A stretch of 35,614 nt of DNA from Flavobacteriales bacterium. GTDB taxonomy: Bacteria; Bacteroidota; Bacteroidia; Flavobacteriales; BACL11. A model generated the notes under the pieces. That model was given only the letters and a program-made list of their open reading frames with translations, had not been told where the DNA came from and made no database searches. The first letter of the stretch is position 1. Every line of letters starts with the position of its first letter. Below, in pieces: positions 3,137 through 32,439 of the stretch. The stretch lies in NCBI GenBank assembly GCA_018652335.1, contig JABICI010000077.1:1-35614 (forward strand), read 5' to 3'. The position numbers were made by a program, and so were the translations under genes.

Positions 3137-6100
3137 ATGAAAAGAAATCTTATACTATTATTTGTTATTTTAATGACAATTCAATCATATGCATCTCACT
3201 TTATTGGAGGAGAAATTACATGGGAATGTAATTCTGATCCTACTAGTCCAGATTATGGGAAGTATACTTTTTTCCTTAAAATTTATCAAGATTGTGATGG
3301 TATTGATTTTAGTACAACAAATGAACTCCTTACTGTGCATAATAATCCAACAATGGGTAATATTAATGTTAATTTTGTATCAACTACTGATATTTCAACT
3401 ACTGGTGTGTCTAATGCTCAGCCATGCTATGACTGTGACAATCAACCATTCGGTCAATTTGGCGCTGTAAAAGAGTGGCTTTATTCTTCAGGTCCAATCA
3501 CATTAAATGGAACGCCACCAGCAGCTGGATGGCATTTTACTTGGGGAAGTTGTTGCAGATCTAGTCAGCTTACTCAAGGGATGAATGATGATGACTGGAC
3601 AATTAGATCTGTTATGTATCCATACACAGATCCATCTGGCACTGTTTTTCCAAACGGTAATATGTGTCATGATAGTTCTCCAATCTTTAAAGAAGAACCT
3701 AAATCAATACTATGTACAGGTTATCCTTTTTCTTACAGTCATCTTGCTTTTGATGTTGAGCTTGATTCATTAAGTTACAGTTGGGCTGAACCGTTAGGAG
3801 ATGAATTTAATTATAATCCTGCAACACCTAATTCAATTGCTTTACCATTTGCTGCTCCATATACAGTAAACTCGCCTATTCCGGGGAATCCAACCTTAAA
3901 TAATAATAATGGTGAAATATCATTTTTTTCTAACACTGCAGGTATATTTGTTACTTGTATTAAGGTAGCTGCTTTTAAATGCGGTCAGGTTGTTGCTGAG
4001 GTATTTAGAGATGTTAATGTCGCACTTATTTCTTGTGGAACACTTCCAAATGGTGCACAAAATTTACCACCAGTTATTACGCCACCATTAGGGCCTCAGA
4101 ATTGGCTAACAAATTTAAATCCCTCAACAGGTTTGCCATCTTATGAAACAACAGTAATGGCTGGTGAATTAGTAAGTTTCTCAGTAGTTGCAAATGATAA
4201 TGATATAAATTCTACAGGAGGTCTGCAAGACCTTTCTTTAGAAGTAGAAGGTGGGCAATTAGATCCTTTGTTAGCTGTAAGTAATGTTGCAACCTTTACT
4301 GTTACTTCATCAGCACCTGGAAATATTTCAGGTGATTTTTTATGGGAATCTAACTGTGATCATATGCAAGATTATGGTTGTGGCAGACAGGGTGGTGCTT
4401 ATACATTCAACTTAAAAGCATATGATGATTTTTGCCCGGCGAATGGAATTGTTATAGCAACTATTACTATAAATGTTATACCACCACAGCCTGACTTAAG
4501 ATGTCTTGCAGTTGATGAAAGTGGTGGTGTAGACCTATATTACTCTTTTCCTCAAGGTGTTGTAGATACTAATATTAAATATGATATCTACCATTCTAAA
4601 CAACTTGGTGGGCCATATGCTTTATTAGACAGTACTTTTTACCCAGATACTAATTACTATCATCCTGGTTCTGGAGCTAATAATTCACAGAGTTATTATT
4701 ACCTTCTTGGATCTGTAACTTGCGGAACTAATGTTGGAGCTGTTTCTGATTCATTATTATTCTCAGATACTTTATCAACTATATTAATGAATTCTTATGC
4801 TGTAGATTTTGGAGTTGCTGCTGATCTTTCATGGAATCCTATACATGATCCACTTTTGCCGTCTTCAAATACAGACTATGACGTTCACCATATAAACGCA
4901 AACAATATTGATAATATTATTATTTCAACACCTAATCTAACTCATAAATTTTTTACAGATGACTGTGATTATGTTCCAAGCTTTTATGTAGAAATAGCTG
5001 ATATAAGTGGTTGTGTCTCCAGATCGTCCATTAGTTCAGTACAGTTACAAGATACGCTTTCTCCTTTAACTCCTGAAATAAAGGATATTTCAGTTAATAA
5101 TCAAGGCAATGCAGTTGTTAGTTGGATTCCTTCCTTAGGAGCAGATTTCTACATAATATATATTCAAGATCAAGCAGGTGCTTGGATTACTTTAGACACA
5201 ATTGATGCATCTTTAAATACATTTAACTATAACAATTCATTAGCTGAGACTATAATAGAAAGCTATAGTGTTAAAGCAATAGATTCATGTGGAAATACAC
5301 GTTCAAGATCACAACAACACAATTCAATATTTTTACAAAGTACATCTGATGCCTGTGATTACTCTATTTCGCTTGATTGGAACGATTATATAAACTGGAA
5401 CGGCGGAACCCATCATTATAATGTCTTGATATCGGAAACAGATGCTAGTGGGAACGTCATTAATTCATCAATTAGGCTGGAAGGGAATACTAATTTAGTT
5501 TTACCAAATATTTCTTCTTCTGCATCATACACTATAGTTGTTGAGGCATTTAATAACGATTCGTCATTTAAAGCTACTTCTAATTTATTGGATATTGATG
5601 TCGCATTTGCAAATAAACCAACATTTAACTATCTAGAATATGCAACAGTTAATCATGATGATGGTTCCGTTGACCTAAGTTGTATTGTTGATCTATCTGC
5701 AGTTATTGACAGATTTGATGTATATAGATCAAAAAGAGATGAAAATATTTTTAGTAAAATAGGTGAAATAGAATCTAGTGGTAATAGTCCAATAAATTAT
5801 AGTGATATGTTACCGTTTACTGATAGTCATTTTTATCAATATCGAATTTATCCTGTTGATACTTGTGGAGTAACTTTAAGTCCTCCTCCATATGATTCTC
5901 CAACTTATTCTAATGATACTTCTTTTGCTCAAACAATTTTGTTAGAAACTGAAGTTAATGTTGATTATAGTGGTTTTCCATCATTAGATGGAGAATATAC
6001 TAATACTTTATCTTTTAATGAATATGACAGATGGCTTGGTTCTGTTTCAGAGTATAGATTATATAGATCAGTTAATAGAGAGCCATTTGATTTACTTCCA

Positions 6101-6646: not shown

Positions 6647-8107
6647 ATGAGCAACAAAATATTAAAAGAAGGCCTAACCTATGATGATGTTTTAGTAGTA
6701 CCAGCCTATTCAGAAGTTCTTCCACACATGGTAAGTACTTCAACAAAATTTTCAAGAAATATAACATTAAATATACCTATTGTATCCGCTGCAATGGATA
6801 CAGTAACTGAGTCAAAAATGGCTATTGCTATTGCTCAAGAAGGTGGAATAGGGGTTTTGCATAAAAACAAGAGTATTGAAAATCAAGCACTTGAAGTAAG
6901 AAAAGTTAAACGATCTGAGAGTGGTATGATTTTAGATCCAATTACTTTAACATTAAATGCAAATGTTGGTGACGCATTTATAATGATGCAAGAAAATAAA
7001 ATTGGTGGTATTCCAATTGTTGGAGAAGATTTTAAACTTTTAGGAATTGTTACGAATAGAGACTTGAGATTTGAAAAAGATATGAACCTCTCAATTAGTA
7101 AGGTAATGACCACAAAAAATATTATTACAACACAAATAAAGGATTTGGATAATGCTGAAGATATTTTAAAGTCAAACAAAATTGAAAAACTGCCAGTAGT
7201 TGATACTGATAATAAGCTTGTTGGACTTATTACCTTCAAGGATATTATTAAAAACAGATTACGCCCTAATGCTTGCAAAGACAAGTATGGAAGATTAAGA
7301 GTTGCAGCTGCGGTAGGAATTACACGTGATGTCCTAGCAAGAGTAGAAGCTTTATCAAAAGTTTCTGTAGATGCAATTGTTATTGATACAGCTCATGGTC
7401 ATACAAAAAGTGTTATTGATGTATTAAAGAAGGTAAAGACGACTTTTCCTAAACTAGATATAATTGTGGGTAATATCGCTACAAAAGAAGCAGCAAAAGC
7501 AATAATTGATGCAGGAGCTGATGCTGTTAAAGTGGGAATTGGACCAGGTTCAATATGTACAACTAGAGTTATTGCAGGTATTGGGGTCCCACAATTAACT
7601 GCTGTGATGGATGTCTCACAAGTATGTATTGAGAGTGATATTCCACTTATTGCTGATGGTGGAGTTAGATATTCTGGAGATATAGTAAAAGCTTTAGTGG
7701 CTGGAGCAAGTACAGTTATGCTTGGTTCAATTATTGCCGGTGTTGAAGAAGCACCAGGTCAAACAATAATTTATGAAGGAAGAAAATTTAAATCATATAG
7801 AGGTATGGGATCAATTGATGCAATGCAAAGTGGATCTAAAGACAGGTATTTTCAAAGTGATGAACTTGATGTTAAAAAATTAGTACCTGAAGGAATTGTT
7901 GGTAGAGTTGCATATAAAGGAACACTTTCAGAAGTTATACATCAAATGACAGGTGGACTAAGAGCTGGTATGGGCTATACAGGATCTGCTTCCATAAGTG
8001 ACTTATCTAATGCAGAATTTTTAAAAATCACTTCTGCTGGTATTAATGAGAGTCACCCGCATGATGTAACAATTACAAGAGAAGCACCCAATTATAGTAG
8101 AAAATAA
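6647..8107 (+). CDS. guaB: Inosine-5'-monophosphate dehydrogenase
   Basis: The 486-residue protein is full length for IMP dehydrogenase, which oxidises IMP to XMP with NAD+ in the rate-limiting step of GMP synthesis. The catalytic loop is [11 protein letters not shown] with Cys304 as the nucleophile. The N-terminal [15 protein letters not shown] block (10-24), DTAHGH (247-252) and the flap [17 protein letters not shown] are all present. Two CBS domains, about residues 97-150 and 155-205, interrupt the barrel as is usual and would bind regulatory nucleotides. It heads a tightly spaced run of six genes ending with def. The next gene starts 10 bases after its stop, so co-transcription with the periplasmic isomerases is likely. 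Nothing about the protein looks unusual. Confidence 0.97.
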
Positions 8108-8117
8108 ATTAAATAAA

Positions 8118-10043
8118 ATGAATAAATTAAGTTTAAGTATTGTTTTATCTGTATTCGTTTTGATTACAAATGGTCAAAATGTTTTGCAAATTGAAGGTAA
8201 AAATGTGTCTTTAGAAGAGTTTAAGAATATTTTTTATAAGAACAATAACAATGTTGATATTACTAAAGAATATCTGAATGAGTATATGGAATTATTTGTT
8301 AACTTTAAATTAAAAGTTAGAGAGGCTGAAGAATTAGGACTAGATACAAACCTTTCTTTTATAAATGAATTAGAAGGATACCGGAAGCAATTAGCTAAAC
8401 CTTATTTAAAGAATAATGAATTCGATTCTCAAATGCTTGATGAAGCTTATTCTAGAATGCTTATTGATTTAAGCGCAAGTCATATTCTCTTTTCATTAAA
8501 TGAAAATGATTCTAAAGAGGATAAAGATAATATTTACAACAAGGCACTAGAAATTAGACAATCAATTATTAATGGAGAAATTTCTTTTTCAGATGCAGCT
8601 GTAAAAAATTCTGATGATAACTCTGCCTTAACTAACAAAGGTAACCTTGGATATTTCACTGCTTTTATGATGGTGTATGATTTTGAATCCGCAGCTTATG
8701 GTTTAAACTCAGGAGAGATATCAATGCCTGTACTTACGAAATATGGTTATCATTTAATAAAAATAAATGATAAGAGAGAAGCTCTAGGTAAGGTTAAAGT
8801 TGCTCATATTATGTTTAATACTGGTGTGGGAGCAAGTAAAGAAAAGCTTAATGAAGCTTCTGATAAAATTAATAGAGCTAATGAATTGCTTGCTAATGGA
8901 GAAGCTTTTGAACTTGTAGCTGAAAAATTTTCAGAAGACAGATCTACTGCTGTAAAAGGTGGTGTTCTACCAACTTTTGGGGTTGGTAAAATGGTTCCTA
9001 AATTTGAAGAAGTTGCGTTTTCACTAAAAAATGTTGGAGATATTTCAGTCCCTTTTGCAACTGAATTTGGATATCATATTATTAAATTGTTAGAGAAACA
9101 ACCAATTTCAGAATTTGATATTATAAAAGCTGATTTAAAAAGAATGATAGCAAAAGATAGCCGAAGTGAATTAAGTCAGAAATCTCTGATTGAGAAGTTA
9201 AGAAGCTCATATAAAGTTAGAAATAATGTTAATGCTTTTGCTTCTTTTAGAAAAAATGCAGCACTTAAAGTAGCTAATAGTGAGTTTAAAATTAACAATG
9301 TAAATAATTCTAGCTTATTTACAATTGAAAATAATATCATTACAGTAAATGAATTTGCGAAATATATCGTCAAAAATCAATCTAAAGTTAGTGATATTGA
9401 TGATTTGTATGTGAATTTTGTTGATGCTTCATTGTTGAGTTATGAGGAGTCAAATTTAGAAACTAAATATCCTCAATACAAAGCGTTACTGAAAGAGTAC
9501 AGAGAAGGAATTTTACTATTTGATTTAACAAATAAGAACGTTTGGCAAAAAGCTGTTGAAGATACTATTGGTTTATTAAGCTACTTTGAAGATAATCAAG
9601 CTACATATTTTTTTAATAACCGCTTAGATGCATCAATATATTCTTGTGAAAACAAAACAATTGCTAAAGAAGTAAGAAAATATATATACAAGAAAAAAAG
9701 GGGTAGTTTATCAAATAAGCAAATTCTAGAAAAAATTAATTCAAATGCAGCATTAAGCTTAAAAATTGAGAGCGGTATTTTTGAGAAAGGAGATAATGAG
9801 TATATCGATACAATTGACTGGAGAGTTGGTATTTCTAGTGATATTATTTTAGAAGATGGTTCACTTGTAATAGTAGATATTAATAAATTATTGCCAGCAA
9901 GAAATAAAAATATTGATGAAATTAGAGGTAAAGTTATATCTGATTATCAAAATCATTTAGAAAAGGCATGGTTAACTATTTTAAAATCTAAGTATTCTGT
10001 AGTTATTAATTTGGAAACTCTATACTCATTAATTCCAAATTAA
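8118..10043 (+). CDS. Periplasmic peptidyl-prolyl isomerase with two parvulin domains
   Basis: The 641-residue protein has a Sec signal peptide (residues 1 to about 19, ending TNG) and no lipobox, so it is probably soluble in the periplasm. An N-terminal chaperone-like region (about 20-115) is followed by two parvulin rotamase domains. The first is about 119-217, with ASHILF, GNLGYF and YGYHLIKI. The second is about 227-325, with VAHIMF, GGVLPTFGVGKMVPKFEEVAF and FGYHIIKLLEK. The remaining 300 residues are helical and not recognised as a known domain. It fits the Bacteroidota PpiC/SurA-type proteins that help fold outer-membrane proteins. Its neighbours support that: a lipoprotein starts 3 bases downstream and a second SurA-like isomerase follows. 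Which client proteins it serves is unknown. Confidence 0.9.
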   Translation: MNKLSLSIVLSVFVLITNGQNVLQIEGKNVSLEEFKNIFYKNNNNVDITKEYLNEYMELFVNFKLKVREAEELGLDTNLSFINELEGYRKQLAKPYLKNNEFDSQMLDEAYSRMLIDLSASHILFSLNENDSKEDKDNIYNKALEIRQSIINGEISFSDAAVKNSDDNSALTNKGNLGYFTAFMMVYDFESAAYGLNSGEISMPVLTKYGYHLIKINDKREALGKVKVAHIMFNTGVGASKEKLNEASDKINRANELLANGEAFELVAEKFSEDRSTAVKGGVLPTFGVGKMVPKFEEVAFSLKNVGDISVPFATEFGYHIIKLLEKQPISEFDIIKADLKRMIAKDSRSELSQKSLIEKLRSSYKVRNNVNAFASFRKNAALKVANSEFKINNVNNSSLFTIENNIITVNEFAKYIVKNQSKVSDIDDLYVNFVDASLLSYEESNLETKYPQYKALLKEYREGILLFDLTNKNVWQKAVEDTIGLLSYFEDNQATYFFNNRLDASIYSCENKTIAKEVRKYIYKKKRGSLSNKQILEKINSNAALSLKIESGIFEKGDNEYIDTIDWRVGISSDIILEDGSLVIVDINKLLPARNKNIDEIRGKVISDYQNHLEKAWLTILKSKYSVVINLETLYSLIPN

Positions 10044-22000: not shown

Positions 22001-24116
22001 ACCTCCTGTAACATCATTTAATTTTAGTGATTCTGTTAGTTGTAATTCAACTATATTCTTTAATGACCTCTCTACAAATGGACCTATTTCTTGGCTATGG
22101 GACTTTGGAGACGGAAGTTTTTCAACTTTGCAAAATCCAGTTCACACTTATCAAACTAGTGGATTTTTCAATGTTAAATTAATCACATCAAATTCTTTCG
22201 GTTCAGATAGCTTAATTATAAATAATGCAATTTATGTTATTGATTTTAATTTGCAATCTCAGAATGATACTGCATGTGGTTCTTCATCATTAAATTTAAC
22301 TGCAAATTCTAGTTCGGGAAATGTTGTTTGGTTTGATGATATTAATTTAACTAACATAGTAGGTACAGGCAATGTATTTTCAACTCCAGTCATTAATTTT
22401 ACTACTGCATTCTATGCTCAATCTATTTATGATTTCTCTCCATTGATTGGAGGTCCTTTAGATAATTCAATTGGTTCAGGAGGTTATTATAATAATGATA
22501 GGCATTTATTTATTGATTGCTATGAATCAGCAAATTTAGTTTCTGTTGATATTTATGCAAATACATCACAATCAATTGTTTTTGAGTTAAGAGATAATAA
22601 TAGTCAAGTTATTGAGGATACAACTATTTTTGTTCAATTAGGCTTAAATACATTATTCCTAGACTTTGATATGCCTGCTATGAACAATCTTGAGCTTGGA
22701 ATTGGAACTGCTAATGCAGATTTATATCGAAATAGTTCTGGAGCAAACTACCCATATAATATTGGAAATATTGCAAGCATAACTGGGCATAATTCTCCAA
22801 ATAGTGCAAACTATCATTACTTTTTCTATAATATTGCTATCAAAAAAGAGTCATGTAGTTCAAATATTGAAGAGGTTTTTGCTGTCATTGAAACAAATAC
22901 TAATGATACAACAAATATCATTTCTTGCGGTTCCTATCTTTGGAATAATGACAATATTTTATATAATACAAGTGGAACATATACTAATCTAAATACATTG
23001 CCAAGTGGTTGTGTTAATACATCAGTCTTAAACTTAACTATTGATAATAACATTACAAATGTAACAAATGAATATAATTGCGGTTCATATTTTTGGCCAG
23101 TTAATGGTATTACTTACGATTCAACTGGAACATTTAGCACTTTAATTACCGACTCTTTAGGATGTGTTACAGAAGAAATATTAAATTTAACTATAGACTC
23201 TAGTACATTTAGCAGTTATTCTGTAAATGTGTGTGATACATATTTATGGACAGTAAATGGAAATAGTTATAATAGTAGTGGAACATATTTAAATATTAGT
23301 ATCTTACCTTCAGGGTGTACTCAAACAGATTCACTTAGTTTAATAATTAATAATTCCAATAGTTCAACACAATCATTCAATATCTGTGATGGTGATAGTA
23401 TAGAGATAAATGGTTTAATCTATAATAGTCCTGGTAATTATCAAAATATCACCCAAAATATTAATGGTTGCGATAGTATTATAAATACAATTATATCAGT
23501 TCAGCCATTAATTAATAATTATCAGAACGTATTGTTATGCGATGGAGATTCAATCTTAATAGGTTCGAATACTTATTTTGAGGACGGAATTTACATTGAT
23601 ACAATTATTAGTTCAAACGGTTGTGATAGTATTGTTTCTTCTGAAATACAGATCTCTAATTTGGAGCTTGAAATATTTTATTCTAATGGTGAATTAGCTG
23701 TTAATACTATAAATGGCGTAATAAATGATTATTTATGGAGTAATGGATTAGTTACATCATCTATAAGTCCATTAGAAAATGGTATATACTGGTGTGTAGG
23801 AACAAATAGTTATGGGTGTTTTAGTGACACAGCATTTTATAACTTTAGCAATACAGCTTCAATTGACAACCCCTATGCTTACTTGAATATTTTTCCCAAT
23901 CCAACTAATTCAATAATTAATATACTTTTTACAAATAATCAAAATACTACAATAACTGTGGAGAATATACTTGGAGAGGAATTATATTCTACTTTATGTT
24001 TGGAGAAGGGAAGTTTAACAAAAAAAATTGATCTTTCTAGTTTTTCTAATGGAGTATATATTATTAAGTTAAGTAATAAACTAGGCATCATAAATAAAAA
24101 AATCATTTTAGAATGA
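19092..24116 (+). CDS. Giant T9SS type A secreted mosaic protein: sortilin/BNR-like propeller, PKD, CUB and Cys-rich repeats
   Basis: The 1674-residue protein has a Sec signal (ending VFSQ, residue 18). Residues about 100-750 form a VPS10/BNR-like beta-propeller built from repeated strands such as GGFWKSTNHGQNW, KSSDNGINW and KSLDGGNSW. A PKD domain follows (about 754-830, YYWDFGDGNTS), then a CUB-like domain (about 853-966, WDYLEIFDG), a second PKD domain (about 975-1052, WLWDFGDGSFS) and an Ig-like segment. Five tandem Cys-containing repeats of about 51 residues run from about 1269 to 1523. From about residue 1600, IFPNPTNSIINI, VENILGEEL and SFSNGVYIIKL form the type A sorting domain ending in KKIILE. 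It is therefore exported by T9SS to the surface or outside. BNR propellers occur in glycan- or peptide-binding secreted proteins. I do not recognise an active site. Confidence 0.93.
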   Translation: MRKFLLFIFILPSIVFSQVWIDKMQDPNNNFYDTQREFEEYWNNKAIEKGKGWKQFRRWENFIKPRVYPDGTQHPEILFEEYNNLIELNNQFLMNPPNIWEQVGPDDVPIQSNGNKRGIGRVNSIAFHPNDPNTLYIGAPAGGFWKSTNHGQNWTTTTDFLTNLGVSDIAINPINPDEIFIITGDRDGGDTYSYGLMKSNDGGNTFNTTGLSFNITNYYRGNRVILDPINPNIVIVSTSNGIYRSTDSGVTFNLTYSSVNMTDIEFHPTNSNIIYGASKGNTSVYKSSDNGINWSQSGTGLPNTNDVVRACVAVTLDNPQAVYALFGGNNNGFYAVYKSLDEGLSWTQQANSPNLLGWDVNGSDSDGQAWYDLAFAVSPNNENTLFVGGVNCWKSTDGGQNWTINTHWYGAGGTSYMHADEHMLHYNKLNNNIYSANDGGLYFSNDDGNSWTDISDGLHITQFYSLGVSQTVQDKIITGAQDNGTFLKNNLNWDPVIGGDGMECIIDYTNSNIMYGALYYGDVRKSTNGGNSFSAIGPANNGAWETPYELDKNDPNIIYIGYDELQKSLDGGNSWNQITNGETNGGKIDEIGLSKSNSNVIFISDGNDIYRTLDGGTNWTQVNNNLPNKYISYIIVHPSDENKVWVTLSGYTSSEKVYKSMDGGDNWINISGTLPNIPINCIELDKSDVLETIYIGTDLGVFSTDSTLSDWNLFGNNLPHVIVNELEIQYQSNKLFAATYGRGLWSIDLEITSPPTANFSYNDSVFCSIPADVSFINNSYYSNSYYWDFGDGNTSTQSNPVHTYNSFGTFSVQLIAVGPLGTDSIIKQQIISIDQTNFCITTLPISGSGNTQTQCTGTIYDVGGPTGNYYDQNDSWMTISPPGSNQITLTFNSFDIEAPSSSTNCNWDYLEIFDGPNLTSPSLGQYCNALTGSPGTITSSGGSITILLHSDQSVNGSGFEADWTCTYPTSPPVTSFNFSDSVSCNSTIFFNDLSTNGPISWLWDFGDGSFSTLQNPVHTYQTSGFFNVKLITSNSFGSDSLIINNAIYVIDFNLQSQNDTACGSSSLNLTANSSSGNVVWFDDINLTNIVGTGNVFSTPVINFTTAFYAQSIYDFSPLIGGPLDNSIGSGGYYNNDRHLFIDCYESANLVSVDIYANTSQSIVFELRDNNSQVIEDTTIFVQLGLNTLFLDFDMPAMNNLELGIGTANADLYRNSSGANYPYNIGNIASITGHNSPNSANYHYFFYNIAIKKESCSSNIEEVFAVIETNTNDTTNIISCGSYLWNNDNILYNTSGTYTNLNTLPSGCVNTSVLNLTIDNNITNVTNEYNCGSYFWPVNGITYDSTGTFSTLITDSLGCVTEEILNLTIDSSTFSSYSVNVCDTYLWTVNGNSYNSSGTYLNISILPSGCTQTDSLSLIINNSNSSTQSFNICDGDSIEINGLIYNSPGNYQNITQNINGCDSIINTIISVQPLINNYQNVLLCDGDSILIGSNTYFEDGIYIDTIISSNGCDSIVSSEIQISNLELEIFYSNGELAVNTINGVINDYLWSNGLVTSSISPLENGIYWCVGTNSYGCFSDTAFYNFSNTASIDNPYAYLNIFPNPTNSIINILFTNNQNTTITVENILGEELYSTLCLEKGSLTKKIDLSSFSNGVYIIKLSNKLGIINKKIILE
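22890..23660 (+). repeat. Five in-frame tandem repeats of about 51 codons
   Basis: Each unit encodes a Cys near the start, a Y.....GTY-like centre and a GC(D/V/T) turn, for example CGSYLWNN, CGSYFWPVNG, CDTYLWTVNG, CDGDSIEING and CDGDSILIGS, ending in a strand such as LNLTI. The first three units share the (S/T)YLW start, and the last two share CDGDSI and end in GCDSI. The units have diverged at the DNA level, so this is an old protein repeat. It is a common repeat type in Bacteroidota secreted proteins. Confidence 0.8.
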
Positions 24117-24790
24117 TAGAACACTATGTGATAGAGCCTCTTAGTAGTTTATGGTGGGTGGGTTTATTGTCATCATTAGCTTTTATTATTGTGTCTATTT
24201 GTGTTTTTTACAATTCTAATAAATCTGTTCAGCTAAATTTTACTAAGTACTTAAGTATTGCATTTATTCTAACATATTTAATTTCAACCGTTATTGCAAT
24301 AAATAATGGTTCATGGAATCTTAAAGATAATTTACCATTTCATCTTTGTAGAATTTCATTTATTTTAAGTGTATTTGTGTTAATTTATAAAACACAATGG
24401 GTTTATGAATGGTTACTTCTATTAGCAATTCCGTCAGGATTACATTCATTATTAACACCTGAAATGACAAAGGGTGTCAGTTATTGGTTTTATTTTGATT
24501 ATTATTTTGTTCATGCTGGTTTAATTTTAGTCCCACTATATCTTACTATAGTTTTAAAGTTAAGGCCTAGATTAGGCTCTTGGTGGAAGACAATCTTAAG
24601 ATTACAAATTCCGGTAATTATTATTTTACCTCTAAATTTTTTATTAGATTCAAATTATATGTATTTGAAGGAAAAACCTTTAGTAAACAATCCATTCTTG
24701 ATAGGAGAGTGGCCATTTTATATATTATTTCTTGAAATTGTTATGATTATTCATGTTCTTTTAGTTTATAAATTAACACCAAAACAATAA
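24113..24790 (+). CDS. YwaF-like (TIGR02206-type) integral membrane protein
   Basis: The 225-residue protein has six or seven hydrophobic helices and no signal peptide, so it is an inner-membrane protein. The motif NLPFHLCRIS (about 76-85), followed by LLLLAIPSGLHSLLTPE and an aromatic-rich YWFYFDYYFVHAG, is the signature of the YwaF/TIGR02206 family, whose function is unknown. Its ATG overlaps the stop codon of the 1674-residue protein by four bases (ATGA), and the next gene starts right after its own stop, so all three are probably translated from one mRNA. Coupling of a conserved membrane protein to two secreted proteins is unusual, but may only reflect compact gene packing. Confidence 0.85.
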   Translation: MIEHYVIEPLSSLWWVGLLSSLAFIIVSICVFYNSNKSVQLNFTKYLSIAFILTYLISTVIAINNGSWNLKDNLPFHLCRISFILSVFVLIYKTQWVYEWLLLLAIPSGLHSLLTPEMTKGVSYWFYFDYYFVHAGLILVPLYLTIVLKLRPRLGSWWKTILRLQIPVIIILPLNFLLDSNYMYLKEKPLVNNPFLIGEWPFYILFLEIVMIIHVLLVYKLTPKQ

Positions 24791-26904: not shown

Positions 26905-28908
26905 TTAAAATTCTAAACTATCAATTAATTTGTCTTCTGTATAATTTGGCATAGTCACTTTTAATTTTGGATTTAACTTCATAGCTCTTTGAATGGCAAA
27001 ATTAGCTTCTTTATTTCTAGCCCAACTTCTTCTTGAAACACCATTGTTGACATCCCAAAATAGCATTGATTCCAGTTTTCTCTCTGAGTCATTACTACCA
27101 TCAATCATCATGCCAAATCCTCCATTTATAACTTCTCCCCAACCAACTCCACCACCATTATGTATTGAAACCCATGTTGCTCCTCTAAAACTATCACCTA
27201 TAACGTTTTGTATCGCCATATCAGCTGTAAATTGTGAACCATCATATATATTAGATGTTTCTCTATATGGTGAATCAGTACCAGACACATCATGATGGTC
27301 TCTTCCAAGTATAATTGGAGCGGAAATTAAACTACTAGAAATTGCTTTGTTAAATGCTCTTGCAATTTCTACTCTTCCTTGTGCATCAGCATATAATATT
27401 CTTGCTTGTGAGCCAACTACTAAATTATTTTTTGATGCAGCTTTTATCCAATTGATATTATCATTCATTTGTGATTTTATTTCATCAGGAGAGTTCTTCA
27501 TTAGTTTTTTTAGAACTTCACAAGCGATATTATCAGTAATTTCTAGATCTTTTGGGTCATTTGAAGCGCAAACCCACCTAAATGGTCCAAATCCATAATC
27601 AAAGCACATAGGCCCCATAATATCTTGTACATAAGATGGGTATTTAAAATCTCCATTTTCTTTTACTACATCTGCACCAGCTCTACTACATTCAAGAAGA
27701 AAAGCATTTCCATAGTCAAAGAAGTACATGCCTCTTTCTGTTAATGTATTTACAGCATTTAAATGTCGAATTAATGTTTCTCTTACTTTTTGCTTAAAGA
27801 ATTCAGGATTTTTATTCATCATTTCGTTTGCATCCTCAAAAGATAAATCTACTGGGTAATATCCACCTGCCCATGGATTGTGTAATGATGTTTGATCTGA
27901 ACCTATCTCAATATTTATCTCTCTTTCTATGATACGCTCTAATAAATCGACAATATTTCCATCATACGCTAATGAAACTGCTTCTTTTTTATTTCTGGCA
28001 ACCAAAGCTCTTTCTAGCAAATCATCAATATTTTTATATACTTCATCAACCCATCCCTGTTGATGTCTTTTATAAGTTGCCTTTGGGTTAATTTCTGCAA
28101 CGATGCATACTCCTTTAGCTATAACAGCTGCTTTGGGTTGTGCTCCAGACATTCCGCCTAGTCCTGCAGTAACAAAGATTTTTCCGCTTAAATCTATAGC
28201 ATTTGTATCAATCTTTCTTGCTGCATTCAGTAAAGTAATATTTGTTCCATGTACAATACCTTGTGGACCAATGTACATATATGATCCTGCGGTCATTTGA
28301 CCATATTGAGTCACTCCAATTGCATTAAATCTTTCCCAATCATTTGGTTTTGAATAATTAGGAATCATCATACCATTTGTAACAACAACTCTTGGTGCAT
28401 TTTTATCTGAAGGAAATAGCCCCATAGGATGTCCTGAGTAAATGACAAGAGTTTGTTCGTCAGACATTTCAGAAAGGTATTGCATGCAAAGTAAATATTG
28501 TGCCCAATTTTGAAATACAGAGCCATTACCTCCATAAGTGATTAATTCCTCTGGATGTTGAGCTATAGCATGGTCTAAGTTATTAGATAGCATTAATTGT
28601 ATTGCTGCTGCTTGCTTACTCTTGTAAGGAAAATCATCAATGTGTCTTGCTTGAAGTGAATAATTAGGCATAAATCTATACATATAAATTCTACCATATT
28701 CTTTTAGTTCTTTAACAAATTCAATTGCTAATTGCTGATGCATTTTCTCTGGAAAATAGCGAAGTGCATTCTTAACAGCTAATTTTTTTTCTTCAGTAGT
28801 TAATAAATCCTTTCTTTTAGGGGCATGACTTATATTTGGATTTAATTCTCTTTTATTAGGAATCTCATTAGGGATACCATTAGTAATTGCTTTTTTAAAA
28901 TCTGTCAT
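26905..28908 (-). CDS. hutU: Urocanate hydratase (long form)
   Basis: The 667-residue protein is urocanase, the NAD+-dependent enzyme converting urocanate to imidazolone propionate in histidine breakdown. Landmarks in order are YGGNGSVFQNWAQYLL (125-140), YSGHPMGLFPS (157-167), GLGGMSGAQPKAA (249-261), FDYGFGPFRWVC (436-447), SGTDSPYRET (542-551) and HNGGGVGWGEVINGGFGM (583-600). At 667 residues it is about 110 longer than the well-studied bacterial enzyme and close in length to the eukaryotic form; this long form is found in Bacteroidota. No other hut gene is adjacent. Its start overlaps the 3' end of the DUF5522 gene by 14 bases, and the two probably share a transcript. Confidence 0.95.
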   Translation of the reverse strand: MTDFKKAITNGIPNEIPNKRELNPNISHAPKRKDLLTTEEKKLAVKNALRYFPEKMHQQLAIEFVKELKEYGRIYMYRFMPNYSLQARHIDDFPYKSKQAAAIQLMLSNNLDHAIAQHPEELITYGGNGSVFQNWAQYLLCMQYLSEMSDEQTLVIYSGHPMGLFPSDKNAPRVVVTNGMMIPNYSKPNDWERFNAIGVTQYGQMTAGSYMYIGPQGIVHGTNITLLNAARKIDTNAIDLSGKIFVTAGLGGMSGAQPKAAVIAKGVCIVAEINPKATYKRHQQGWVDEVYKNIDDLLERALVARNKKEAVSLAYDGNIVDLLERIIEREINIEIGSDQTSLHNPWAGGYYPVDLSFEDANEMMNKNPEFFKQKVRETLIRHLNAVNTLTERGMYFFDYGNAFLLECSRAGADVVKENGDFKYPSYVQDIMGPMCFDYGFGPFRWVCASNDPKDLEITDNIACEVLKKLMKNSPDEIKSQMNDNINWIKAASKNNLVVGSQARILYADAQGRVEIARAFNKAISSSLISAPIILGRDHHDVSGTDSPYRETSNIYDGSQFTADMAIQNVIGDSFRGATWVSIHNGGGVGWGEVINGGFGMMIDGSNDSERKLESMLFWDVNNGVSRRSWARNKEANFAIQRAMKLNPKLKVTMPNYTEDKLIDSLEF

Positions 28909-29084: not shown

Positions 29085-29098
29085 CGATATTTGTGGAA

Positions 29099-29980
29099 AT
29101 GAAAATAAAAACACAAGAAATATCTACTGGCATATTAGATGAGAAAGAGGTTCAGTTATTTGTTAAAAGAATTGATCTCATACATGAATTTATATCTGGA
29201 AATAAGTGGTATAAGTTAAAGTATAATTTACTAGAAGCGAAAAAAAATTTATTTAATACTCTTTTAACTTTTGGAGGAGCATATTCAAATCACATATTAG
29301 CGACCTCAGTTTTAGCAAATGAAAATGGTTTTAAAAGTATTGGTATAATAAGAGGAGAGAGGTGCTCTGATTTGAATCCAACTCTGAAGCTAGCTAAAGA
29401 ATATGGAATGCAACTTCATTACGTAAACAGAAATGAATATCAATCTAAAAAGACATCTAAATTTCTTTCAGCATTAAGAAATAAATTTGGTGATTTCTAT
29501 TTAATACCAGAAGGAGGGTCAAATAAATTTGCACTAAAAGGAACATCAGAGATAATTACTAAAATTGATTCTCAAGATTACATTTGCTGTTCAGTTGGTA
29601 CTGGTACAACTTTAGCTGGAATTATAAATTCATCTTCTATTAAACAGAATATTATTGGATTTCCAGCTATTAAAGGTTATAAAGAGTTAAAAAAAGAAAT
29701 TCAAGGAGTAACAACAAAAAGTAATTGGCTGTTAAATAATGATTTTTGTTTTGGAGGTTATGCAAAAACAAATCCATTATTAATAAATTTTATTAATACT
29801 TTTAATAAAAATCAATTAATACCACTAGATGCTATATATACAGGAAAAATGATGTTCGGTATTTTAGAGTTAATTTCAAAGGATTATTTTCCAAAAGGAA
29901 GTTCTATTCTTGCAGTTCACACTGGTGGATTACAAGGAAATAAAGGAATGAACCAAAGATTTGGGTTTAGTTTACCATAA
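29099..29980 (+). CDS. PLP-dependent enzyme of the ACC deaminase / D-cysteine desulfhydrase family
   Basis: From the ATG at 29099 the protein has 293 residues. An in-frame GTG at 29093 gives two more residues, but ATG is the better choice. The fold-type II PLP lysine is in SGNKWYKLKYNLL (Lys39 of the ATG form), the substrate or PLP-phosphate loop is FGGAYSNH (58-65), and a Ser/Gly-rich PLP-phosphate loop CSVGTGTTLAG lies near residue 165. This family includes 1-aminocyclopropane-1-carboxylate deaminase and D-cysteine desulfhydrase, and homologues in Bacteroidota are of unproven substrate. The Tyr-Ser-Asn-His motif is kept by both activities, so it does not discriminate. The kinase gene starts 9 bases after its stop, so the two are probably co-transcribed. 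Confidence 0.88.
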   Translation: MKIKTQEISTGILDEKEVQLFVKRIDLIHEFISGNKWYKLKYNLLEAKKNLFNTLLTFGGAYSNHILATSVLANENGFKSIGIIRGERCSDLNPTLKLAKEYGMQLHYVNRNEYQSKKTSKFLSALRNKFGDFYLIPEGGSNKFALKGTSEIITKIDSQDYICCSVGTGTTLAGIINSSSIKQNIIGFPAIKGYKELKKEIQGVTTKSNWLLNNDFCFGGYAKTNPLLINFINTFNKNQLIPLDAIYTGKMMFGILELISKDYFPKGSSILAVHTGGLQGNKGMNQRFGFSLP

Positions 29981-29989
29981 AATTAAATT

Positions 29990-31039
29990 ATGCAAAAAAT
30001 AATTAAAGAATTTGAGTTTAATGGTGCTGTAGTTGAGATTATGGAAAATTCATTAGGTTTAATTAATAATACTTATGTATTGAGAAGTGGCTCTGAGAAA
30101 TTTATACTTCAAAAGATAAATACATATGTTTTTAATAACCCTATTCAATTAATGGAAAATATATATCTAATTACTAATCATATAAATAATCTTAATAAGA
30201 TTTCTCTTGAAATAATTAAAAATAAACAAGGTAGTCTATTAGTAGAATCAGATGGTGATTTTTGGCGAGCATTTAAATTTATCAAAAGCCAAGTTTTTTT
30301 AAAGATAGATGATTCAAGTTTGATTATTGAATGCGCAAAGTGTCTTGCAAACTTTCACAAAGATTTTTCAGTATTTCCATTTAAGAAGCTTCATACTGTT
30401 ATTCCAAATTTTCATAATACTCCTGTTATATTTGATAGATTTAAAGAGATGTTATTACATACAAGTGAATCAAATAAGATAGAATGTGTGTCACAAATTA
30501 ATTATGTGTTAAGTAAAGAAAATGATTGTAAAATTATTCATAATCTCATCTTGAAAAAAGAAATTCCGTTAAGGGTATGTCATAACGACCCGAAAATTAG
30601 TAATATCTTATTTGATAGCAAAAAGAAAGCAATCTGCTTGATTGATTTAGACACAGTTATGTCAGGCACTATTTTATCTGATATTTCAGATGCAATTAGA
30701 ACTTGTTGCGTCTCTCAATCAGAAGAAGAAATAGATTTAGAAAAGGTTTTTTTTAAATTTGATTATTTTGAAATTTTTATAAAATCTTACTTAAAAGTGA
30801 ATTATGATAATTTAAATAAAATTGAACTTAGTAATTTAGTTTTTTCAGTTGAGCTGATCTTTTTAGAGCAAGGAATTAGATTTTTGTCTGACTATTTTAA
30901 TGGAAATAAATATTTTAAAGTTAATCATCAAAAGCACAATCTATTAAGAGCTAATAATCAACTTAAGTTGTCAAAAGAAATAAGAAATAATAAATCTAAG
31001 CTGCAAAAAATATTAGATAATATTATTCATAATTTCTAA
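29990..31039 (+). CDS. NahK-like N-acetylhexosamine kinase (aminoglycoside phosphotransferase fold)
   Basis: The 349-residue cytoplasmic kinase has the APH fold. GLINNTYVLRS then KFILQKINTYVFNNPIQLMENI (23-58 region) matches the N-lobe of N-acetylhexosamine 1-kinases (NahK), with the nucleotide-binding Lys37 or Lys42. The catalytic loop is CHNDPKISNILFD (197-209, Asp200 as base), and the metal-binding LIDLDTVMSGTILSDISDAIR (217-237) is very close to the NahK consensus. NahK phosphorylates GlcNAc or GalNAc at C1 in sugar salvage. The gene follows the PLP enzyme by 9 bases and its 3' end overlaps the opposing GH109 gene by 27 bases. A GH109 neighbour, which releases GalNAc, supports this substrate class. 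Exact sugar specificity is inference. Confidence 0.85.
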   Translation: MQKIIKEFEFNGAVVEIMENSLGLINNTYVLRSGSEKFILQKINTYVFNNPIQLMENIYLITNHINNLNKISLEIIKNKQGSLLVESDGDFWRAFKFIKSQVFLKIDDSSLIIECAKCLANFHKDFSVFPFKKLHTVIPNFHNTPVIFDRFKEMLLHTSESNKIECVSQINYVLSKENDCKIIHNLILKKEIPLRVCHNDPKISNILFDSKKKAICLIDLDTVMSGTILSDISDAIRTCCVSQSEEEIDLEKVFFKFDYFEIFIKSYLKVNYDNLNKIELSNLVFSVELIFLEQGIRFLSDYFNGNKYFKVNHQKHNLLRANNQLKLSKEIRNNKSKLQKILDNIIHNF

Positions 31040-32407
31040 AGATGAATAATCCCTCCATTTCCCTGCAGTAAAATCTGGAATGATAATTGATTGACTTTTA
31101 GAAGCGACAGATATTTCTGATAATGGTGTGATGGCACTCCACATTACACTATCATATACATTTATATCTAAAGGTATTCCAAGATTTAAGCCTCTTATCA
31201 TTCTATATATCATTACAAAGTCCATCCCACCATGACCTTGTTTAAAACCTTCGCTGATTTTTTCTAAACTTTTAATGATTGGATGCTTGTATTTAGTTTT
31301 AAATAAATTATACTCATCTTTATTAAGCCAATTATGACCCCATGACGGTATATTTTCTTTATCAATATATAATCTGCTTGGGTAGCCATCATGAACAGCT
31401 TTTGTTCCAACCACTTTATTTATTCTAGTATATGGTCTTCCTGTATGAACATCAAATTGTAATAATATTGTTTTTCCTTTTTTTGTTTTGATTAATGTAT
31501 TATTCATATCTCCACAAGAATATGATTGAATAGGATGATTTTCATTTTTAGCTGCTTTGCTCAAATTTAATTCTCTACTACTCATTGAAGTTAAGTATGA
31601 AAAAGTATCCCCTCTAGCGATATTAAGATAGAATGAAATTGGACCTAACCCATGAGTTGTATATAGGTTTCCATTTCGATTAATATGCTCATTTAGTCTC
31701 CATTGGTCTTGATAATAAGTGTCGCTTAATAAAAGCCCTCTTAAATCATGAATGTATGCTCCTTCAGTATGTGTAATATCTCCAAATACCCCTTCTTGAA
31801 TCATATTTAATATCCATAGCTCTTCTTCGTTATAATTACAATTTTCCATCATCATGCAGTGTTTTTTTGTTCGTTCAGCTGTTTCTATGATTTTCCAGCA
31901 ATCTTTTAAAGTTGAAGCTATCGGAACTTCGCATCCAACATGCTTGTTATTTTCCATAGAAAAGATAGCCATCTTTGCATGCAGATTCCAAGGAGTAGCA
32001 ATTATTATTAAATCGATGTCATCTCTTTTACACATTTTTTTCCAATCATCATTAGAATCATAAAAAAGTTTGATTTTTTTTCTTTGCCAAGATGAAATTT
32101 TCTCAGAAGCCAAATTAACTTTCTTATAAGTTAAATCAGATAGTCCATTTATCTCTGCGTGATTATTTTTAATTAAATACTCTAGCATTTCTAACAATGT
32201 ATTTCCTCTGTTACCAAGTCCTATTATCCCAATTCTAACTTTCTCTATTTTACTACATTTAAAACCAAACATACTTCCATTATTATCTCTTTTTGCTTTG
32301 TCAATTAATTCTTGAATAGAGTTGTTTTCAGCGTCAATTTTTGATATTGGAAATCCAAGAAATGCACTTGCTCCTAAAATAGATTTCATAAATGCTTTTC
32401 TTTTCAT
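31013..32407 (-). CDS. GH109-family NAD-dependent alpha-N-acetylgalactosaminidase-like protein (Gfo/Idh/MocA fold)
   Basis: The 464-residue protein has the Gfo/Idh/MocA Rossmann fold, with GxGxxG in GLGNRG (63-68). It also has the signature of glycoside hydrolase family 109, in which bound NAD+ drives cleavage by transient oxidation of the sugar. Glu160 (GCEVP), Tyr218 (EGAYIHD), Tyr249 and His252 (YTTHGLGP), Tyr326 (GRPYTR) and GHGGMDF (391-397) correspond by motif to the active-site positions of the Elizabethkingia enzyme. The N-terminus MKRKAFMKSILGASAFLGF resembles a signal peptide of the Tat type, but with Arg-Lys instead of the twin Arg, so export is uncertain. A perfect -7 box lies 24 bases before the ATG. 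GH109 is known for alpha-GalNAc release; other Gfo/Idh/MocA activities remain possible. Confidence 0.85.
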   Translation of the reverse strand: MKRKAFMKSILGASAFLGFPISKIDAENNSIQELIDKAKRDNNGSMFGFKCSKIEKVRIGIIGLGNRGNTLLEMLEYLIKNNHAEINGLSDLTYKKVNLASEKISSWQRKKIKLFYDSNDDWKKMCKRDDIDLIIIATPWNLHAKMAIFSMENNKHVGCEVPIASTLKDCWKIIETAERTKKHCMMMENCNYNEEELWILNMIQEGVFGDITHTEGAYIHDLRGLLLSDTYYQDQWRLNEHINRNGNLYTTHGLGPISFYLNIARGDTFSYLTSMSSRELNLSKAAKNENHPIQSYSCGDMNNTLIKTKKGKTILLQFDVHTGRPYTRINKVVGTKAVHDGYPSRLYIDKENIPSWGHNWLNKDEYNLFKTKYKHPIIKSLEKISEGFKQGHGGMDFVMIYRMIRGLNLGIPLDINVYDSVMWSAITPLSEISVASKSQSIIIPDFTAGKWRDYSSLEIMNNII

Positions 32408-32431: not shown

Positions 32432-32439
32432 CAAATATA
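32432..32439 (-). promoter_or_regulatory. Bacteroidota -7 box for the GH109 gene
   Basis: On the minus strand this is TAtaTTTG, a perfect TAnnTTTG match, 24 bases before the ATG at 32407. The nearest TTG-equivalent is about 27 bases upstream, a little beyond normal spacing. The divergent glucosaminidase gene starts 82 bases from the GH109 start; no box for it was recognised. Confidence 0.5.

Follow-up and report, generated by a model that had tools for sequence, protein, structure and literature searches.

Genes and signals at the locus

Two genes lie tail to tail in the window, by which we mean the whole 35,614-nucleotide stretch of DNA that was analysed: one for an NahK-type N-acetylhexosamine 1-kinase (positions 29990 to 31039, plus strand; 349 amino acids, with no signal peptide seen) and one for a GH109-type NAD-dependent alpha-N-acetylgalactosaminidase (31013 to 32407, minus strand; 464 amino acids, with a putative Tat-like N-terminus in which RK replaces RR). 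Their 3' ends share 27 bases (31013 to 31039), as an earlier sequence-only reading of this DNA had described. The overlap itself is nothing special at this locus, and it is 8 bases long in two related loci (L005 and L007). The local gene order is HutU (minus), an ACC-deaminase/D-cysteine desulfhydrase-like gene (29093 to 29980, plus; alternative ATG start at 29099), NahK (plus), GH109 (minus), and a glucosaminidase-domain gene (PF01832; 32489 to 33343, plus) that is a syntenic neighbor of GH109. The ACC-deaminase-like gene ends 9 bases before NahK, and because of this short gap NahK is probably the second gene of its transcript. GH109 is preceded by a promoter-like site of the TAnnTTTG type (TATATTTG, 32432 to 32439, minus strand), which lies 32 bases ahead of the start of the gene; the motif is found 32 to 36 bases upstream of GH109 in 12 of 14 clade loci, whereas 9.35% of 110-base stretches taken at random from the window contain it anywhere. 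With NahK following the ACC-deaminase-like gene and GH109 having its own promoter-like site, we regard the tail-to-tail placement as secondary, the two genes being pathway partners that probably do not share one transcript.

Several other genes of the window are recorded here for context. A sodium:solute symporter family gene (PF00474, 17600 to 19021), 11 kb from NahK, could conceivably encode a sugar importer. A 225-amino-acid membrane protein (24113 to 24790) matches TMEM164 (PF14808, E 3e-40), a family known mainly from animals. The urocanate hydratase gene (26905 to 28908) encodes 667 amino acids, of which residues 96 to 635 are covered by the HutU model (545 positions), and at a Cyclobacteriaceae locus (L029) a HutU 67% identical to that of the window lies about 3 kb from GH109.

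The kinase is assigned firmly to the NahK type on sequence and modelled structure. In a phmmer search of the PDB, residues 5 to 345 match N-acetylhexosamine 1-kinases at E values around 1e-58 (1.5e-58 to 4.7e-58), and only Bifidobacterium N-acetylhexosamine 1-kinases match below E 0.8. A profile of 20 relatives finds NahK at E 2.9e-106, with the next PDB entry at 0.0088, and the AlphaFold2 model (pLDDT 94.9) superimposes on NahK 4ocv with a TM score of 0.97, against 0.66 for homoserine kinase, the second-best family. The HND loop and the IDLDT motif align with their counterparts in NahK, including the catalytic loop pointed out in the sequence-only reading, and H198, D200, and N205 (HND loop) and D219 and D221 (IDLDT) are invariant in 20 sequences. 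The kinase alignment (A1) uses 20 of 22 available rows, a further alignment (A2) 16 of 18, and the GH109 alignment (A3) 21 chosen rows. A choline or homoserine kinase, which that reading had named as the alternative placement, is ruled out by the profile E values and by the fold; in Pfam, APH scores above cut-off and Choline_kinase below it.

The assignment of the minus-strand protein to GH109 is likewise firm as a sequence-based prediction. It matches PF21252 (E 2.4e-45), with PF01408 also above cut-off, and aligns over its full length with PDB entries 6t2b (E 9.7e-89) and 2ixa (E 8.6e-66). The motif set noted earlier (Glu160, Tyr218, Tyr249, His252, Tyr326, and GHGGMDF) is complete and invariant in 21 aligned homologues. 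His404, Tyr226, and His259 are given as catalytic residues of AmGH109A in PMC10755693; by alignment they correspond to H392, Y218, and H252 of the window protein, all invariant in the 21 sequences. The GGHGG loop reads QGHGG in the window, its first glycine being absent from the marine branch and from 2ixa (AGHGG). It is very unlikely that this protein is instead an oxidoreductase of the Gfo/Idh/MocA superfamily acting on some other sugar and linked only indirectly to NahK. GH109 does belong to that superfamily, many of the weak matches are dehydrogenases, and a Maribacter GH109 is described in one report as being of unknown function (PMC11036162), but the full-length match to two GalNAcases, the PF21252 match above cut-off, and the retention of three invariant AmGH109A catalytic residues all count against it.

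The RR.F motif is present in 13 of 90 distinct GH109 N-termini (proteins shorter than 400 amino acids and exact duplicates excluded), and the marine branch carries RK for the Tat RR. Loss of Tat export as the origin of the RK motif is ruled out by the presence of TatC, which is matched at E 0.001 in the window genome (G000) and in 46 of the 52 family genomes in all. The RK N-terminus of the marine-branch proteins (32380 to 32407 in the window) may be a variant that the Tat system tolerates.

A resident GH109 gene and a variable kinase

A scan of public genomes yielded 80 GH109 loci that were kept, 11 of which are syntenic with the window (L002 to L011 and L018). GH109 is present in all 11 by design of the search, and NahK is present in three (L002, L005, and L007) and absent from the other eight. 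Whether or not NahK is present, GH109 lies between the ACC-deaminase-like and glucosaminidase genes in the family loci, which argues that GH109 belongs to this interval and that NahK is the variable gene. The suggestion that the pair had been inserted as a unit between these flanking genes is accordingly ruled out by synteny, with only NahK varying. In 9 of 10 loci lacking NahK the ACC-deaminase-like gene ends inside the end of GH109, the remaining locus (L107) having a gap.

The GH109 and kinase trees differ in how they place the NahK-bearing loci. In the GH109 tree, built from a fixed list of window-clade loci with duplicates removed, these loci do not form one clade, and L007 (with NahK) is sister to L008 (without) with support of 99/97. 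In the kinase tree (50 of 66 kinases found, those shorter than 250 amino acids and duplicates being excluded), the NahK proteins of L002, L005, and L007 form a single clade, also with support of 99/97. Identity among the three lineages is 54 to 57% for NahK and 60 to 66% for the flanking ACC-deaminase-like gene. NahK has thus diverged at least as much as its flank, while the NahK-positive GH109s do not form one clade, so that a recent transfer of NahK among lineages at the locus is disfavored. The better explanation is an older arrival followed by repeated losses. At L008 the ACC-deaminase-like gene (7376 to 8260) groups with that of another species (G048; support 100/98), the GH109 is 95% identical to that of L007, and the genes on either side of the ACC-deaminase-like gene closely match those of L007; NahK was probably lost from this locus through local recombination.

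Tail-to-tail GH109-NahK pairs occur at 16 of the 80 loci, comprising L002, L005, L007, and 13 others (11 Flavobacteriaceae and 2 Cyclobacteriaceae). In all of these 13 a nucleotidyltransferase gene lies behind NahK, and their kinases occupy two other places in the kinase tree. The kinases of tail-to-tail pairs thus fall in three separate places, which implies at least three origins of the layout. Co-directional GH109-nucleotidyltransferase-NahK arrangements are also found (e.g., L014, L019, G019, G076, G083, G117, G125, and G144), as are divergent ones (G116 and G166). Many Flavobacteriaceae loci (L043, 1760 to 5916, and similar loci) have GH109 after a gene for a GH3-beta-lactamase fusion and one that Pfam assigns to the GT4 glycosyltransferases, the latter resembling BshA of bacillithiol synthesis; these surroundings are a GlcNAc-centered neighborhood.

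Co-occurrence and a third partner

The distribution of NahK across genomes follows that of GH109 closely. Among 52 genomes of the family, NahK is found in 12, GH109 in 20, and the nucleotidyltransferase in 18, with all 12 NahK genomes carrying both of the others. Among 146 genomes of the order the corresponding counts are 25, 33, and 40, and GH109 accompanies NahK in 23 of 25 and the nucleotidyltransferase in 25 of 25. The order-level NahK count omits four weaker matches from the 29 genomes matched, namely, G137, G141, and G157 (36 to 54 bits), in which GH109 adjoins the kinase, and G094 (20.8 bits), which has no GH109; with these restored GH109 is present in 26 of 29. In the class Bacteroidia (247 genomes), NahK is found in 36, GH109 in 41 over cut-off (G300, below cut-off, being dropped from 42), and both in 35, such that GH109 is present in 35 of 36 genomes with NahK and in 6 of 211 without (Fisher p 3.7e-35). 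At the genus level GH109 is found in 22 of 23 NahK genera versus 6 of 120 others (p 1.9e-19); we note that the family, order, and class draws share some genomes and that these tests ignore kinship. NahK without GH109 is seen in G079, G167, and G212. The functional link between NahK and GH109 is real, and the part of the sequence-only reading that proposed such a link and a check by co-occurrence is borne out.

It is hardly credible that the two genes are chance neighbors brought together in the window by genome compaction with no metabolic link. Such an explanation could appeal to the way NahK follows the ACC-deaminase-like gene in the window and to its absence from most of the syntenic loci, but co-occurrence holds where NahK and GH109 are unlinked (e.g., G045 and G048), and their adjacency arose repeatedly; chance is strongly disfavored by these observations. 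Of the 35 class genomes that have both genes, 14 have them within 10 kb of each other, as counted by eye from coordinates. GH109 is also found without NahK in 8 of 20 family, 10 of 33 order, and 6 of 41 class GH109 genomes, so that GH109 has other uses or partners, and in 3 of the 10 order genomes a divergent kinase lies next door. Very divergent NahK-like kinases (24 to 26% identity) adjoin GH109 at L150 to L152 (G137, G157, and G141), with a weak nucleotidyltransferase match nearby, and these are possibly a separate branch of the GH109-NahK-nucleotidyltransferase trio.

The third partner belongs to PF00483 and has as its closest structure 3pnn, a Porphyromonas gingivalis member titled only 'a glycosyltransferase.' After 3pnn, its profile finds UTP-glucose-1-phosphate uridylyltransferases (GalU-type), and its structural model (pLDDT 91.6) matches RmlA and GalU folds. 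It adjoins NahK in 22 of the 25 order genomes, the exceptions being G000, G044, and G079. In the window genome it is located on a different contig (C89), between lumazine-binding (RibE-like) and PurT-like genes, and NahK is thus split from the nucleotidyltransferase gene in this lineage. The claim of a two-gene module therefore stands in its functional link, but it missed the nucleotidyltransferase as the usual partner, and NahK is apparently cotranscribed with the ACC-deaminase-like gene and not with GH109.

The same RibE-like/PurT site in G038, G045, and G048 has an NahK of another branch after the nucleotidyltransferase. In G000, G024, G001, and G044, where NahK is beside GH109 and the nucleotidyltransferase is not, there is no NahK between the nucleotidyltransferase and PurT, and none of the family genomes has NahK at both sites. 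Two kinds of NahK thus appear to be used alternatively within one family. Among the loci of this nucleotidyltransferase site (L118, L122, L124, L126, and L127), the other-branch NahK lies between the nucleotidyltransferase and PurT in some and is cleanly missing in others; L126 is the locus of the window genome, with the nucleotidyltransferase gene at 3442 to 4341.

A proposed route and its known relatives

We consider it rather probable that GH109 and NahK catalyze two steps of a single N-acetylhexosamine salvage route that feeds UDP-HexNAc via the nucleotidyltransferase. GH109 would be exported by the Tat path with NAD bound and would cleave alpha-linked GalNAc, and possibly other HexNAc residues, off a glycoconjugate. 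A transporter would bring the freed sugar into the cell, and NahK would phosphorylate it at O1 in the cytoplasm. The nucleotidyltransferase (contig C89 in G000) would then convert HexNAc-1-phosphate to UDP-HexNAc for envelope or protein glycans, such that the phosphorylated sugar would supply UDP-sugars rather than energy metabolism. UDP-HexNAc is the simplest fate of HexNAc-1-phosphate because the nucleotidyltransferase is a constant companion, and recycling is favored over burning of the sugar because neither NagA nor NagB is convincingly matched in any of the 52 family genomes. Specifically, NagB is matched in none of the 52, against 8 of 14 control genomes, and NagA has weak matches, most of them partial, in 51 of 52 with none over cut-off, in a search for these two enzymes that covered mostly incomplete draft genomes. 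The agaS/agaA type of GalNAc pathway is placed only in Actinobacteria, Firmicutes, and Proteobacteria in PMC5583593.

The pair could alternatively be catabolic, as in Bacteroides thetaiotaomicron, with GH109 freeing GalNAc for carbon and energy and NahK starting its breakdown through another deaminase or isomerase. Deletion of BT4240 abolishes growth of B. thetaiotaomicron on GalNAc, according to PMC11992087, but the NagB and NagA results, the presence of the nucleotidyltransferase in every order genome with NahK, and the lack of SusC/SusD-type genes among the Pfam matches of the window make this reading rather unlikely.

We suggest, tentatively, that GH109, NahK, and the nucleotidyltransferase of the 3pnn type make up an unrecognized Bacteroidota-wide trio that takes alpha-linked GalNAc directly to UDP-HexNAc and that, in marine Flavobacteriales with small genomes and neither NagA nor NagB, serves only the recycling of glycans, perhaps their own. 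No description of this trio was found in the literature searched, which was mostly outside subscription journals. The usual view of GH109 is of an enzyme used in feeding (mucin, blood group A). Its almost perfect co-occurrence with an O1 kinase, joined at the level of the order by the nucleotidyltransferase and extending to a lineage without detected NagA/NagB, suggests that part of the GH109 family belongs to a nucleotide-sugar salvage route. If the trio is as proposed, GH109 in seawater would mark amino-sugar recycling and not glycan feeding; the co-occurrence also gives a testable substrate class for the 3pnn nucleotidyltransferase family.

In the AmgK-MurU route of peptidoglycan salvage, an APH-family O1 kinase and a sugar-1-phosphate nucleotidyltransferase yield a UDP-amino sugar, and the kinase and nucleotidyltransferase described here would work alike. 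As far as the profiles show, however, the families differ: that of the kinase recovers no family but NahK, that of the nucleotidyltransferase recovers 3pnn and GalU-type entries, and neither AmgK nor MurU is among the matches listed. An AmgK-MurU identity for the two is thus not supported by profile matches, in libraries that may not include AmgK. The window kinase resembles Bifidobacterium NahK (BL1642; PDB 4ocj, 4ocu, and 4wh1) in family, motifs, and fold (TM 0.97, 32% identity). Bifidobacterial NahK acts together with a phosphorylase in the LNB/GNB pathway, whereas the NahK described here is partnered with a glycosidase and a nucleotidyltransferase. The window GH109 shares full-length homology and the same catalytic residues with the Akkermansia AmGH109A (6t2b) and Elizabethkingia (2ixa) enzymes but differs in its N-terminal RK for RR and in QGHGG for GGHGG. 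GalY (Amuc_0031) is of the same Pfam family (PF00483) as the nucleotidyltransferase of NahK and was also predicted from phyletic patterns, as a GalT replacement, but is assigned to galactose in the source (PMC5583593).

The closest likeness is with the BT4240-43 operon of B. thetaiotaomicron, in which the same two enzyme families occur, GH109 freeing GalNAc and an APH-family kinase phosphorylating it at O1. The 2025 report identifies BT4240 as a GalNAc kinase that targets O1 and, in vitro, phosphorylates well only once GH109 (BT4243) has released GalNAc; both genes are in the BT4240-43 operon of PUL BT4240-50 (PMC11992087). The release-then-phosphorylate order proposed for the window is consistent, by analogy, with this homologous pair working in sequence, and the impression that the arrangement was an undescribed module does not hold, that operon having the same two activities. 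The terms 'nucleotidyl,' 'uridyl,' and 'UDP' are absent from the main text of that report. In B. thetaiotaomicron the genes form a single operon within a mucin PUL, together with GH2 and an MFS transporter, and are associated with growth on GalNAc, whereas the window has a convergent pair, linked in one genome but not in one operon, with no PUL genes in sight and the nucleotidyltransferase elsewhere in the genome. In the window, then, a partnership whose function had already been described recurs in rearranged form, and to it the present analysis adds the lack of convincing NagA/NagB, the repeated convergent layouts, the class-wide statistics, and the third partner.
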